Shown one piece after another: positions 4,550-44,348 of a stretch of 64,000 bases of DNA; the first letter of the stretch is position 1; each line of letters starts with the position of its first letter. The position numbers and the translations under genes were made by a program. The DNA comes from Alkalihalobacterium alkalinitrilicum (GTDB taxonomy: Bacteria > Bacillota > Bacilli > Bacillales > Bacillaceae_F). The stretch is taken from assembly GCF_002019605.1 (NCBI RefSeq), contig NZ_KV917368.1, positions 3,920,519 to 3,984,518 on the forward strand, in the 5' to 3' direction. The notes beneath the pieces were generated by a model. That model was given only the letters and a program-made list of their open reading frames with translations, was not told the DNA's origin and made no database searches.

Positions 4550-4580
4550 CTACTGTTCTTTTGCTATATTAAAATGGTCT

Positions 4581-4640
4581 ACATTTGGCTAATAAAACTG
4601 AAAATCAGCTAATTAAAATCGGAATTTTGCTAAAAACCTC
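4581..4640. repeat. degenerate about 22-bp AT-rich tandem repeat (family A, copy 1)
   Basis: Two to three units of the form TTTGGCTAATAAAACTGAAAATC follow one another here with decay. The same unit appears at 16664-16765 and 18218-18330. The rest of the icmF-rpoE gap (to 4907) contains a TATAAT at 4739-4744 that may belong to the rpoE promoter, although no good -35 box is spaced for it. Nothing else is evident. Confidence 0.5.
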
Positions 4641-4907
4641 TAAATTTACGCCAGTATACTAACGATAAAGTCGTCGCGTCAACTAGTAGATTTTAGAATT
4701 TTTTTTAACATTTCTAGCATATTACATTGAAATATGTTTATAATGAAAAGTATGATTCTTTATACTTTCAAGATTGAAGTTTGAAAACAGATTAAAGTAA
4801 AAGAATAACTAAGGCGTACGCTGAAAATTTTGGCGTAAGATTAGGCTTTTTCTATCAATAACGAAGCTTTACATAATAGATGATGATGTAAAAAGGAGTG
4901 CGTTAGT

Positions 4908-5417
4908 ATGAGTATTAGTGCATACAGTCGTGAAGAAATAGCAGAGCTGTCAATGATTGAGGTAGCGTTTCAAGTATTAAAAGAAGGAAAGCAAACCTAC
5001 TCTTATCTTGACTTAATTAAACGAGTTGTTGAGCTTAAAGGTATGTCAGCAGAAGAAATGAAACAGCGCATCTCATATCTTTATACGGAATTAAATGTCG
5101 ATGGACGATTTATGTGTATTGGTGATAATGTGTGGGGTCTTAAAGCATGGTATCCAATTGAAAAAATTGAAGAAGATATCATTACAGCAAAACCTCGTAA
5201 GAAAGCGAAGGCTACTGAGGATGATGAGATCGAGGTTGAGGAAGATTTCGAGGACTTCGAAGATGAGTTTGAAGAAATTGAAGACGAATTAGATGAATTA
5301 GCTGAAGATGAAGATAGTGATGATTTTGAAGAAGAAGACTTAGATGGTTTTTCAGGTGACGAAGAAGAAGAAGAGTTTGATGACGAAGAAGAAGCCGCAG
5401 AAGAAGATGATGATTAA
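4908..5417 (+). CDS. rpoE: DNA-directed RNA polymerase delta subunit
   Basis: The 169-residue protein has the N-terminal HARE-HTH fold (residues about 1-85, including MIEVAFQVLKEGKQTYSY and LNVDGRFMCIGDNVWGL). A C-terminal tail from about residue 100 is almost entirely Asp and Glu. This architecture is diagnostic of the Firmicutes delta subunit, which binds core RNA polymerase, helps displace nucleic acids and sharpens promoter response to initiating NTP levels. The ATG at 4908 follows AAAGGAG with good spacing. The gene precedes pyrG as in B. subtilis but is separated from it by a dedicated pyrG promoter and attenuator. Confidence 0.96.
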   Translation: MSISAYSREEIAELSMIEVAFQVLKEGKQTYSYLDLIKRVVELKGMSAEEMKQRISYLYTELNVDGRFMCIGDNVWGLKAWYPIEKIEEDIITAKPRKKAKATEDDEIEVEEDFEDFEDEFEEIEDELDELAEDEDSDDFEEEDLDGFSGDEEEEEFDDEEEAAEEDDD

Positions 5418-5519
5418 TAAAGCTAGTTGCAAAACGGTTCTATGCGGACTTTCTAATCAAGCGTTCATTTTGTCCAAGCCAATAGTTAAAAAAGACATTA
5501 TAAACATAAATGAATAATC

Positions 5520-14974: not shown

Positions 14975-15037
14975 TTCGTCATGTGTGATTTTAAACTCTG
15001 TTTCGAAAAGATTCAGGGCGGAAGGAGTTGAGAACGA

Positions 15038-28120: not shown

Positions 28121-28231
28121 TTTTTGAAAAAAAGTACGGATTTTGTCGTATGTTCGTGGTAGAATAGAATTGAATTTGAAAGCAATAACCGAAAAACACG
28201 AAGAATGGTTGCTACTGAAAGGGGTATAGAG

Positions 28232-29473
28232 ATGGAAACGTTAAAAAATCAAGATCCTAAAGTATATGAAGCAATCCAACTAGAGTTAGGTAGACAACGA
28301 GATAAGATTGAAATGATTGCATCAGAAAACTTTGTAAGTGAAGCTGTAATGGCAACACAAGGCTCAGTTCTTACAAACAAATATGCAGAAGGTTACCCAG
28401 GACGCCGCTATTATGGTGGTTGTGAATATGTTGATATCGTCGAAGATTTAGCTCGCGATCGTGCAAAAGAGATATTTGGTGCAGAGTATGTTAACGTACA
28501 ACCGCATTCAGGAGCACAAGCGAACATGGCGGTATATTTTACGATTTTAGAAACTGGTGATACAGTACTTGGAATGAACTTATCGCACGGCGGTCACTTA
28601 ACCCACGGAAGTCCAGTTAACTTCAGTGGAGTTCAGTATAACTTCGTGGAATACGGAGTAGATCAAGAAACACAAACAATTGACTATGATAAAGTTCTTG
28701 AGCTAGCAAAAGAGCATAAACCGAAATTAATCGTAGCAGGTGCGAGTGCATATCCTCGTGAGATTGATTTTGAAAAGTTTCGTTCGATTGCAGATGTTGT
28801 GGGTGCATACTTAATGGTTGACATGGCTCATATTGCAGGACTAGTTGCTGCAGGTCTTCACCCAAGCCCTGTACCGCACGCTCATTTCGTGACAACGACA
28901 ACACATAAAACATTACGTGGACCTCGTGGTGGAATGATTCTTTGTAAAGAAGAGTTTGGTAAGAAAATTGATAAATCTATTTTTCCTGGTATTCAAGGTG
29001 GTCCATTAATGCACGTTATTGCAGCAAAAGCAGTAGCATTTGGAGAAGCCCTTCAACCTGAATTTAATACGTATGCGGAAAATATCGTGAAAAACGCGAA
29101 ACGTCTAGGGGAAAAACTGACGAGTGAAGGAATTAAACTCGTTTCAGGCGGCACGGATAATCACCTTTTACTGTTAGACCTTACAGGCCTAAAGTTAACA
29201 GGTAAAGTTGCTGAGCATGCTCTAGATGAAGTAGGAATCACAACGAATAAAAATACAATTCCATTCGATCCAGAAAGTCCATTTGTAACAAGTGGAATTC
29301 GTATCGGTACAGCTGCAGTTACATCTCGTGGCTTAGACGAAGCGGCAATGGATGAACTTGGCGAAATTATGGCATTAACATTAAAAAATATTGATAACGA
29401 AGAAAAATTGAAAGAAGCAAGTGCACGCGTCGATGCATTAACTAAGAAATTCCCAATGTATCCAAACCTATAA
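28232..29473 (+). CDS. glyA: serine hydroxymethyltransferase
   Basis: GlyA converts serine and tetrahydrofolate to glycine and 5,10-methylene-THF, the main one-carbon source. The 413-residue PLP enzyme has [28 protein letters not shown], the Schiff-base lysine K226 in [14 protein letters not shown], and a C-terminal domain with [17 protein letters not shown] 28232 (METLKNQDP) follows AAAGGGG; an in-frame ATG at 28205 is upstream of that site and rejected. The region upstream contains GTTCG and CCGAA half-sites reminiscent of PurR boxes, but I could not assign a promoter with confidence. Confidence 0.97.
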
Positions 29474-29527
29474 GAATTGAAGCTCCTTCCCAGGTTTGAA
29501 TGTGGGAATACAGCCTCAAAAAATGTT

Positions 29528-29568
29528 AAGAGATCAAATCCTTATGCGATTTGGTCTCTTATTTTTTT
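29528..29568 (+). terminator. intrinsic terminator after glyA
   Basis: AAGAGATCAAATC (29528-29540) pairs with GATTTGGTCTCTT (29548-29560) with one G-U pair, followed by ATTTTTTT. Confidence 0.9.
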
Positions 29569-29705
29569 GTATTAAGAGCGAGAATGGTTGCTGGGGCTAG
29601 GGTACTGTATGGTTCCCTTGAAAGGGGGAAAGAATCAAGGGCGGTAATCAAAGAAGGTTAATGGTTCCCCAAGATGGAGGTTCGTGTTAGAGCAGGAGCG
29701 GGAAC

Positions 29706-30213
29706 CACAGAGAGTTTATAGTGCCCGCAGGAGGAAGTCACAAGTAGTTCACGGTCACTATAGAGAGTTCATAGTGCCCGCGGGAGGGAGTCACAAGTAG
29801 AGAGCGGTCACTATAGAGAGCTGATAGTGCTCGCAGGAGGGAGTCACAAGTAGTTCACGGTCACTATAGAGAGTTCATAGTGACCGCGGGAGGGAGTCAC
29901 AAGTAGAGAGCGGTCACTATAGAGAGCTGATAGTGCTCGCAGGAGGAAGTCACAAGTAGTTCACGGTCACTATAGAGAGTTCATAGTGCCCGCGGGAGGG
30001 AGTCGCAAGTAGTTCGCGGTCACTATAGAGAGTTCATAGTGCCCGCGGGAGGGAGTCGCAAGTAGTTCGCGGTCACTATAGAGAGTTCATAGTGCCCGTA
30101 GGAGGAAGTCACAAGTAGTTCGCGGTCACTATAGAGAGTTCATAGTGCCCGTAGGAGGAAGTCACAAGTAGGGAGCGGTCACTATAAAGAGTTCATAGTG
30201 ACCGAAGGAGGAG
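29706..30213. repeat. 53-bp palindromic tandem repeat array, about 9.5 units
   Basis: Units begin with CACTATAGAGAG at 29756, 29809, 29862, 29915, 29968, 30021, 30074, 30127 and 30180, exactly 53 bp apart. A 50-bp variant at 29706 leads and the last unit is partial. Each unit holds two inverted repeats: CACTAT/ATAGTG across a 9-nt loop, and ATAGTGACCGCG/CGCGGTCACTAT spanning the rest (best in the unit at 29862). Units at 29756+29809 and 29915's pair repeat as 106-bp dimers with two differences, showing recent expansion. 53 is not a multiple of three and there is no ORF, so it is noncoding. It fills most of the glyA-upp gap; the remaining 30214-30330 shows nothing clear. Confidence 0.95.
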
Positions 30214-30411: not shown

Positions 30412-31056
<645 letters not shown>

Positions 31057-41535: not shown

Positions 41536-41728
41536 GCATCTACTGGCAGTAATACCCCCACCTCAAGAGCTCAAAAAAAGTGGTATAACAAACCTGCGAG
41601 TAACAACTAATTGAACACCGACTAACTGCACAAGTCCTGTGGCCACGTCTGTGTGACTCACATCGTGTGGGCCTCAATTAACCATCAGAGGGGTAAGAGG
41701 AAAACCTGATTGATGGAAGTTTCAATTT
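41536..41728 (+). repeat. hairpin-ended relic element E1
   Basis: The 5' part ACTGGCAGTAATACCCCCACC and the 3' part, CCATCAG (41682-41688) pairing with CTGATTGATGG (41706-41716) followed by GAAGTTTCAATTT, match element E2 at 57248-57402. The 3' hairpin also matches E3 upstream of spoIID. A GC-rich hairpin insert (GGCCACG...CGTGTGGGCC) lies in the middle of E1. No ORF. Confidence 0.6.
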
Positions 41729-42655: not shown

Positions 42656-43164
42656 ATTTAGACAGCATCACTAAAGCAGAGCGAGAAGAGTTAGAACGTA
42701 CCGTCTTTTATACCACATTAGAACAAGTAAAAGCTTGGGCTAGAAGTAACTCGTTGTGGCCATTGACCTTCGGGCTAGCTTGTTGTGCCATCGAAATGAT
42801 GGGTACGGGATCATCACACTATGACCAAGACCGATTTGGGGTCCTATTTAGAGCATCTCCAAGACACTCGGACTGTATGATTGTATCTGGAACGGTGACA
42901 AAGAAAATGGCACCAATCCTTAAGCGTCTTTACGACCAAATGCCAGAACCAAAATGGGTAATTGCGATGGGTTCCTGTGCGACTGCAGGCGGACCTTATA
43001 TTAAGTCATATGCTGTTGTTAAAGGGGTCGATCAAATTGTCCCTGTTGATGTCTATATCCCAGGATGTCCGCCCAATCCAGCAGCATTAATTTATGGAAT
43101 TAACAAGTTACAAGAAAAAATCCGCTATGAAGCAAAGACTGGAAAGCGGGTGATCAATAAATGA
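42646..43164 (+). CDS. nuoB: complex I subunit NuoB (cluster N2)
   Basis: The 172-residue hydrophilic subunit carries the terminal 4Fe-4S cluster N2. Its ligands are the adjacent cysteines C46 and C47 (LACCAIEMM), C111 ([10 protein letters not shown]) and C141 (PGCPPNP). It begins [24 protein letters not shown] 42646 is preferred over the in-frame ATG 42625 because the latter lies inside nuoA. It overlaps nuoC by an ATGA. Confidence 0.96.
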
Positions 43165-44348
43165 GTGATGAGAAGGCAAAAGCCGCCGCATTAGCAAAGC
43201 AGGGTGGAGAGGCTGAAACAGCAGGTGGAGATGATGCGAAAGCGAAAGCAGCAGCGGCGGCGAAAGCAAAGGCAGCAGCAGTAGCGAAAGCAAAAGCAGC
43301 TGCATTAGCGAAGCAAGGTGGAGAGGCTGAAACATCAGGTGGAGATGATGCAAAAGCGAAAGCAGCAGCGGCGGCGAAAGCAAAAGCAGCTGCATTAGCA
43401 AAGCAAGGTGGAGAGGCTGAAGCATCAGGCGGAGATGATGCAAAAGCGAAAGCGGCGGCGAAAGCGAAGACAGCAGCAGCGGCTAAAGCAAAAGCAGCTG
43501 CATTAGCAAAGCAAGGTGGAGAGGCTGAGTCATCAGGTGGAGATGATGCGAAAGCGAAAGCGGCAGCAGCGGCGAAAGCGAAGGCAGCAGCAGCGGCTAA
43601 AGCAAAAGCAGCCGCATTAGCAAAGCAAGGTGGAGAGGCTGAAACATCAGGTGGAGATGAAGCGAAAGCGAAAGCAAAAGCAGCGGCCGTAGCCAAAGCG
43701 AAGGCTGCGGCTGCCGCAAAAGCGAAAGCTGGCGCTGGAGATAGTGATGATGAAAAAGCAAAAGCGAAAGCCGCGGCAATTGCTAAGGCAAAGGCAGCAG
43801 CAGCAGCGAAAGCTAAAGCAGCAACAGGTGGTGAAGCTTCGGACACTAATCCTGATGAGGGTCAACCGTCACCAAACCAACCATTGCTCGATAAGTATTT
43901 GAAAGTCATTAACGAAAACTTAGGCGAAAACATGCTAGAGGAAGCCTATATTAATAGACTAGGGAAGGACGTTCCTACTTTAGTAGCGAAGAAGGAAACG
44001 TACTTTAAGCTTGCGCAATTTTTAAAGCATAACGAACAACTTGCTTTCGATTATTTATCGGAACACCATGGTTCTGACTTTGAAACACATATGGAAATTT
44101 ATAATCATATGTATTCTTTTAAAACGAAGGAAAACATCGCGTTAAAGGTAAAGATTGACCGAGATGAACCTAAAATTGATTCGATTACCTCCGTTTGGGA
44201 AGGTGCCAATTGGCCAGAGCGAGAAGCGTATGACCTATTAGGCATCGAGTATATTGGTCATCCAAACTTAACGCGAATCATGCTAACAGATGACTGGGTT
44301 GGACATCCACTCAGGAAAGATTATGAGCCGCATGATGAGGAGGTGTAA
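43161..44348 (+). CDS. nuoC: complex I subunit NuoC with Lys/Ala-rich repeat extension
   Basis: The 395-residue protein has two parts. Residues about 238-395 are the conserved 30-kDa subunit, with [45 protein letters not shown]. Residues 1-230 are a low-complexity segment of Lys-Ala helices, with the motif [11 protein letters not shown] repeated five times (GGEAE at 15, 53, 83, 119 and 157), each followed by a short [10 protein letters not shown] linker. Unit lengths are 30 to 38 residues. The extension is likely helical and positively charged; its role is unknown. Related extensions occur in other Bacillus NuoC proteins as far as I recall. It is translated by overlap with nuoB. Confidence 0.93.
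43176..43839 (+). repeat. imperfect in-frame tandem repeats within nuoC
   Basis: GCAAAAGC-type codons recur in units of about 90-114 bp, each with GGTGGAGAGGCTGA coding for GGEAE. The repeats keep the frame but vary in length, a likely site of length polymorphism. The minus strand is also open here only because of the codon bias. Confidence 0.85.

Follow-up and report, generated by a model that had tools for sequence, protein, structure and literature searches.

A 53-bp tandem array between glyA and upp in Alkalihalobacterium alkalinitrilicum: a possible row of dyad protein-binding sites in helical register

Bacterial dispersed repeats such as the STAR elements of Staphylococcus aureus have no known function. 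STARs, in the excerpted text of PMC3532100, are dispersed intergenic tandem arrays with units of about 50 nt, each made of a conserved core (a 14-bp GC-rich direct repeat, T(G/A/T)TGTTG(G/T)GGCCC(C/A)) and a spacer. Spacers of one locus resemble each other and differ from those of other loci, the number of copies is variable, most loci hold a single motif (with a maximum of seven), and locations differ between species. The REP and BIME-2 elements of enterobacteria are extragenic imperfect palindromes in tandem arrays, in which the REPs alternate in orientation; the partial texts of PMC2817692 and PMC6379681 also report that BIME-2 binds DNA gyrase and propose a role for it in organising the chromosome. 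Further dispersed intergenic repeats include bcr1 of the Bacillus cereus group and other MITE-like repeats (PMC3733652, in its excerpted part). No earlier description of the arrays presented here was recognised among open-licence PMC papers, which is a weak check of novelty.

The window (the whole stretch of DNA analysed, 64,000 nucleotides) lies in the chromosome of Alkalihalobacterium alkalinitrilicum, whose genome comprises 5.52 Mb in two contigs, and corresponds to G000:C1:3920519-3984518. An earlier note, made from the letters of the window, reported a 53-bp tandem array at 29706-30213 of the forward strand, and this array is real. Tandem Repeats Finder (TRF) calls it at 29709-30212 with a period of 53, 9.5 copies, 88% matches, and 0% indels, and nine cores of the form CGGTCACTATAGAGAGTTCATAGTG, with 0-2 mismatches each, recur every 53 bp without exception, and none was found in 100 shuffled versions of the window. 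Core 1 (29752-29778) is a GGKMACTAT-n9-ATAGTKMCC dyad. Cores 2 (29805-29831) and 4 (29911-29937) carry the variant centre AGAGAGCTG, and in core 3 (29858-29884) the right arm, ATAGTGACC, matches the left arm in full. Cores 5 (29964-29990), 6 (30017-30043), 7 (30070-30096), and 8 (30123-30149) are followed by core 9 (30176-30202), the last good unit, in which the left arm is fully matched by the right. The nine unit starts given in the note were thus recovered, but its "50-bp first unit" is better described as a degenerate 53-bp unit with a core at 29699-29725, whose left half-site is degenerate and whose right half-site, ATAGTGCCC, is intact. The nested inverted repeats are also present, although a fully matching right arm, ATAGTGACCG, is found in two units only (29877 and 30195); six units, including the decayed first one, have ATAGTGCCCG and two have ATAGTGCTCG. 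Pairs of units repeat as 106-bp dimers, as claimed: 104 of 106 positions are identical between 29752-29857 and 29858-29963. This identity, together with the decayed edge unit, makes it likely that the array grew by unequal exchange or slippage.

The array is flanked as the note had proposed, with Pfam matches of the SHMT family to glyA (serine hydroxymethyltransferase, 28205-29473) upstream and of the UPRTase family to upp (uracil phosphoribosyltransferase, 30427-31056) downstream, both on the forward strand. The co-directional glyA ends in an intrinsic terminator at 29527-29569 (a hairpin at 29527-29561 followed by a T-run, -17.0 kcal/mol), about 145 bp before the array, and its sense strand is the purine-rich spacer strand of the array. 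The array itself is noncoding: no open reading frame of at least 80 aa covers it, and its last bases are shared with a spurious frame of 86 aa.

Arrays of this kind, here called type A, recur in the chromosome of A. alkalinitrilicum. Their unit consists of a 27-bp dyad, GGKMACTAT-n9-ATAGTKMCC, and a spacer of 24-26 bp, and the spacers are alike inside one array and different between arrays. About 17 arrays, weak ones counted, lie between 2.70 and 4.87 Mb. A DNA search of the genome with the window array gave 59 matches at E values up to 10, and the strict tandem pattern gave 45 forward and 47 reverse matches between 2.88 and 4.54 Mb (control 0); in the profile search R1, 150 of 1041 first-look candidates were scored. 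The unit is therefore dispersed, in intergenic arrays beside ordinary genes, and none of the units seen lies in insertion sequence ends or rRNA spacers. Single cores with at most one mismatch gave 110 forward matches (reversed control 0); among the matches listed, which omit a fully matching core at 4.54 Mb seen by other scans, all were within arrays. In 2.06 Mb of unselected DNA from the same genome, cores at this threshold numbered nine in the window array and one in a two-unit array at 4.54 Mb, and no solitary core was seen. Chance origin was rejected, as all reversed-pattern controls gave 0, and so was a mobile or phage origin, with no matches of the tandem pattern in the viral_contigs collection and no blastn match of the window array in plasmids or phages. 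A 17-unit type A array (G000:C1:3984575-3985431; positions 4576-5432 of locus L160) starts 57 bp past the right end of the window.

Several features of type A arrays are those of described families. Like STARs, they are dispersed intergenic tandem arrays with locus-specific spacers, and, like REPs and BIMEs, they are extragenic imperfect palindromes in many copies. In contrast to the 14-bp direct repeat and short loci described for STARs, the type A core is a dyad of 25-27 bp and the arrays hold 2-40 units at a locked pitch, a feature for which the excerpted text of PMC3532100 gives no STAR counterpart. The STAR signature occurs once in 2.25 Mb of the A. alkalinitrilicum genome, at 200960, outside the listed arrays. 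Whereas REPs alternate in orientation within BIMEs (PMC2817692 and PMC6379681, in their partial texts), type A units run head-to-tail at one pitch; since the core is a dyad, only the spacer gives a unit its orientation. At the palindrome foot of 125 units from this genome, GTAG/CTAC was found within 8 nt in 13 and CGTC/GACG in 0. MITE-like repeats, in the excerpted part of PMC3733652, are described as single elements with terminal inverted repeats and not as tandem arrays. Judged by their letters, type A arrays are dispersed extragenic arrays comparable to BIMEs and STARs and members of neither, because the units have no STAR signature and no GTAG/CGTC tag and stand head-to-tail at a single pitch. 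The view of the earlier note that no known repeat family fits is upheld, in that CRISPR, REP/BIME, and STAR each differ from the arrays in at least one tested feature.

A tandem-pattern scan of a GTDB genome collection found 61 stretches. The hosts are Litchfieldia alkalitelluris, several species of Neobacillus, Pseudoneobacillus, Fredinandcohnia, Niallia, Salipaludibacillus, and Bacillus sp.; a further host is a record named Paenibacillus bovis. This record (strain DE0126, VEFU01; loci L033, L061, L078, and L090) has 51-bp type A arrays whose letters are identical to those of a genome in the window's own order (G087), and its species label looks doubtful. In an even draw of that order, 3 of 397 genomes had the strict tandem, as did 1 of 7 genomes of the family; its absence from the other 394 and 6, respectively, indicates that it is not essential. 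Occurrence is patchy even inside one genus. One genome of the same genus (G004) has arrays with slightly different cores, and the glyA-upp gaps of G004, of a second congener (G005), and of G006 contain no array, so arrays are gained and lost at individual sites; they are candidate loci for strain typing. Flanking gene pairs were shared between genomes at three loci, all in Neobacillus-like species, and no orthologous array position was found across genera beyond these. Among 608 clustered open reading frames near arrays, the clusters common to at least three genomes looked like ordinary genes (e.g., rnr, smpB, a NirD-type gene, and an acyl-CoA ligase, judged by eye from the first residues), and the idea of a recurrent neighbour gene was dropped.

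The earlier note offered three readings of the array: a protein-binding array, a recombination hot spot, or a structured RNA. The first appears to fit best, given conserved half-sites, arms that vary independently, and a locked pitch. Our preferred reading, held tentatively, is that the array may be a row of dyad double-stranded DNA sites, 51-53 bp apart and in helical register, for a putative dimeric DNA-binding protein. Half-sites are the most conserved part of the unit. Between 15 arrays of A. alkalinitrilicum, identity is 0.87 in the half-sites, 0.59 in the centre, and 0.44 in the spacer, against 0.35 for shuffled spacers; the corresponding values are 0.89, 0.46, 0.43, and 0.33 in Neobacillus DY30 and 0.95, 0.31, 0.53, and 0.25 in Litchfieldia. 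The Litchfieldia spacers are thus related between arrays (0.53 versus 0.25), so spacers are not free everywhere. The two degenerate positions of the half-site follow a pattern as well. K stands for T or G and M for A or C, and exchange within either pair keeps the central donor/acceptor pattern of the major groove. Such degeneracy is a tolerance that a protein contact would allow.

The pitch is the second line of evidence. Run with no preset period, TRF returned 52 or 53 in all 13 distinct type A arrays that it called in A. alkalinitrilicum (the two-unit array L018 was not called) and 51 or 52 in all 50 arrays with a type A core among 61 loci of other genomes. At these 61 loci it called 16 more noncoding arrays that have no recognisable type A core, some of which may be decayed type A parts; 15 have a period of 51 or 52 and one of 45. 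When cores were chained under a limit of 49-56 bp, the modal period of the 62 resulting arrays was 52 in 50, 51 in six, and 53 in six, and 3 of 529 steps fell outside 51-53. Chaining linked only spacings of 45-60 or 49-56 bp (in some scripts also 100-110, for a skipped unit), and the freer tests of pitch are the TRF runs and a pattern for a sequence-unrelated core, GTCCTTCAT-n7-ATGAAGGAC, that allowed any unit of 40-58 bp. This second core was found in 34 of the 397 genomes drawn from the order, which represent 19 of 135 genera (reversed control 0). Among the matches listed, which come from 22 of the 34 genomes, the unit is 52 bp in 138 of 150 and 51-53 bp in 148, and both exceptions belong to G003, a genome of the same genus as the window. 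A sample of one match from each of these genomes, to which G003 contributed a regular match, shows a 7-bp centre and a spacer of 26-27 bp in all 22. Between genomes, spacer identity is 0.36 versus 0.32 shuffled for the inner part and 0.42 versus 0.35 for the whole; the inner values indicate that spacer letters are nearly saturated, whereas spacer length is not.

Other dyads keep the same spacing. Downstream of upp, G006 has a 52-bp array with GGTCTTCAT-n7-ATGAAGACC, and G007 and G008 carry several arrays with TGTCCTTCAT-n7-ATGAAGGACA, the core for which the 40-58 bp pattern was made. In five blocks of the A. alkalinitrilicum genome (2.0 Mb), five of the six noncoding arrays with a period of at least 30 bp and at least 2.8 copies have a period of 51-53 and the sixth of 41, or six of seven with the window array added; an array of 2.3 copies at 0.85 Mb (block 0.70-1.10 Mb) falls under the copy limit. 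The claim covers longer units and not periods of 15-26 bp, of which the same blocks hold 19 noncoding arrays. Among 31 arrays within open frames of at least 120 codons in these blocks, 30 have other periods; the one with period 51, at 3818908, has the GTCCTTCAT core, and its frame is probably not coding. Arrays with a TTCC..GGAA core have a period of 51 (184182, 211854, and 4635063) and those with a GGAACGAA..TTCGTGCC core a period of 53 (461580 and 1057698). The TTCC..AAGGAA core of the former (loci L215, L216, and L262 on G000:C1) is weakly symmetric, and a fourth, decayed array of this type lies at 4650185. In G003, AATAAGRGC... palindromes are spaced 51 bp apart (L171, at 1029 and 1080; L191), and one such pair lies within the glyA-upp gap.

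Five turns of B-DNA at 10.4-10.5 bp amount to 52-52.5 bp. Constant spacing and symmetry in units whose sequence has otherwise largely changed point to docking of a putative protein along one face of the DNA, although the pitch could also come from one ancestral unit or from a copying mechanism. Sequence and spacing appear to have been decoupled by evolution: cores can differ and spacers are almost random between genomes, while unit length is near constant across many genera. Decoupled spacing of this kind would be a direct, testable sign of helical register. In the proposed mechanism, each dyad site would be bound by a dimer of the putative protein, and the spacing of 51-53 bp, about five helical turns, would place neighbouring dimers on one face of the DNA. 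These dimers could then contact one another or wrap the DNA, presumably with cooperativity. Standing behind transcription units, the arrays may shape local chromosome architecture as a topological boundary or docking place, much like BIME-2 in Escherichia coli, and they would grow and shrink by whole units through unequal recombination or slippage, a mode suggested by the dimers, by edge units that have decayed, and by orthologues that differ by a gap of one unit. Such a protein, if one can be identified, would count as a new component of bacterial chromosome architecture. A broader version, in which a number of unrelated dyad cores share a lattice of about 52 bp across Bacillales and each core presumably has a dimeric protein of its own, is conceivable and on the doubtful side; if true, the arrays would be a bacterial counterpart of satellite DNA, forming regular protein filaments behind transcription units.

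The arrays could instead be a selfish or neutral satellite, which on the whole we consider unlikely. A palindromic unit would have spread intergenically, possibly aided by an IS200/RAYT-like Y1 transposase, and would grow by slippage, its length inherited or set by copying and without function. Consistent with this, the cores are extragenic, lineage-specific, and patchy inside a genus, the glyA-upp gap of the congeners G004 and G005 is empty, and dimers and decayed edge units are present. The recombination hot spot of the earlier note accounts for array growth, as seen in dimers and decayed edge units, but leaves one unit length, common to unrelated cores, unaccounted for. Y1_Tnp matches were present in 5 of 5 genomes searched; on the other hand, the 13 matches in A. 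alkalinitrilicum are all more than 5 kb from any type A array (only type A cores were considered), and a spreading unit fits poorly with the missing solitary cores in the 2.06 Mb of unselected DNA. Beside the usual IS200-size frames, low-scoring Y1_Tnp matches occur in frames of 153-230 aa (G000:C1:4113071 and 4122467; also in G003, G004, and G008), which may belong to RAYT-like genes associated with other core types. Orthologous arrays bear on neutrality as well. In an array shared by two Neobacillus-like species, 4 of 55 half-site positions have changed as against 19 of 93 in the spacer and 21 of 94 in the flank (P 0.036 for half-site versus spacer), and the one large gap spans 51 columns, a whole unit. 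The contrast is weaker in the G007/G008 pair (half-sites 12 of 136, spacer 30 of 212, flank 13 of 72; P 0.18), as expected of a neutral repeat. Between genomes, the randomised spacer letters at a preserved spacer length also speak against such a repeat and accord better with protein sites held in register.

An improbable reading places the function in RNA, with transcribed hairpins every 52 nt serving as a 3' stabiliser, processing site, or sponge. On each strand, the window array folds better than shuffled versions of it (z -5.0 and -7.7), but these scores are inflated because the units are repeated and complementary. Each of the 15 arrays scored in A. alkalinitrilicum follows the 3' end of a gene whose sense strand carries the purine-rich spacers (those at 2.70 and 4.54 Mb are too weak for context counts, leaving 15 of 17); the upstream genes include those for enolase, release factor 2, thymidylate synthase, and an arginase-family protein as well as glyA. 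None of 14 arrays scored is inside an open reading frame, and one reaches into the end of an open frame of 100 codons. A terminator precedes 13 of the 15, the array starting 27-143 bp past the hairpin end (L159 and L160 have none), which argues against this reading. Among 52 arrays of other genomes, 25 are co-directional, 11 convergent, 3 divergent, and 13 at locus edges. With 6 of 53 facing 3' ends left out of the terminator scan as too far, 17 of the 47 near ones have a terminator before the array and 30 do not; the count is 10 of 12 in Litchfieldia and 3 of 11 facing 3' ends in DY30, so arrays may be transcribed in DY30. Placement at 3' ends is general and counts toward the preferred reading of protein sites; a terminator ahead of the array is not general. 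In favour of the RNA reading, three STAR-like elements of S. aureus are covered by RNA-seq reads in the excerpted text of PMC5294841.

A base-paired hairpin should show in the arms. When right arms were shuffled within arrays and agreement was counted at the two degenerate positions (K and M), the arrays of A. alkalinitrilicum gave 39 versus 37.8 and 34 versus 34.9 expected (85 distinct units), and all genomes together gave 265 versus 263.1 and 217 versus 214.2 (372 units). Arms pooled over other genomes looked correlated (139 versus 88), an effect explained, under the stratified test, by genomes and arrays that differ from one another. The single exception in within-genome shuffling is the K position of DY30, where agreement was 35 versus 27.7 (P 0.002) with arms shuffled across the genome and not within arrays. 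Independent variation of the arms within arrays argues against a hairpin, as do the consensus sequences of L157 and L161, which combine GGTAACTAT with ATAGTGCCC and break two pairs. In the end units of two G008 arrays (L183 and L210), both arms depart from the usual core at their five inner bases (GTCCAATAG/CTATTGGAC), a joint change that the hairpin model also predicts; their counterparts in G007 (L182 and L195) have end units of this type with a mismatch, and pitch and dyad are kept. Rfam has no match over the window array. The structured RNA of the earlier note is weakened by the missing covariation, the terminators, and the Rfam result, and may still apply in Neobacillus, where most arrays have no preceding terminator. 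Double-stranded DNA sites for a dimeric protein would leave the two arms free to vary separately.

It is very unlikely that the arrays are an origin-proximal centromere-like or forespore-capture element, akin to RacA ram sites, RefZ motifs, or parS. RefZ, in the excerpted text of PMC6657595, binds five nearly palindromic motifs that keep their position with respect to oriC. In A. alkalinitrilicum, none of the 17 type A arrays placed is farther from dnaA (at 3.751 Mb) than 0.41 of the half-chromosome, and their mean relative distance is 0.20, a value reached in 1 of 200,000 uniform draws. In Litchfieldia (dnaA at 4.768 Mb), the 12 loci, merged by hand with array positions typed in, reach no farther than 0.60 (P 0.0024 by this measure), yet the bias in mean distance is not significant there (0.42, P 0.17) or in Neobacillus DY30 (0.40, P 0.14). 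Other cores of the same pitch, moreover, stand in the terminus half of the A. alkalinitrilicum chromosome (e.g., at 0.18, 0.21, 0.46, 0.85, and 1.06 Mb). The origin-proximal bias is strong in this genome and weak in the two others, and an origin mark is not claimed. A CRISPR array or remnant, suggested by the repeat-spacer look and the palindromic 27-bp repeat that might lead to mis-calling as happened to STARs, is ruled out for practical purposes, as spacers are near identical within each array rather than unit-specific and the window array is one of about 17 dispersed arrays.

Further features of the window concern another gene and two RNAs. At 43161-44345, a gene for an NADH dehydrogenase 30-kDa subunit has its Complex1_30kDa domain at residues 276-392, ahead of which lies a long Ala/Lys-rich stretch encoded by repeats of 24 and 90-114 bp. 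The Rfam matches in the window, both unrelated to the array, are an L31-Firmicutes ribosomal leader and a Bacillaceae-1 RNA, at 14996-15027 and 41606-41671.
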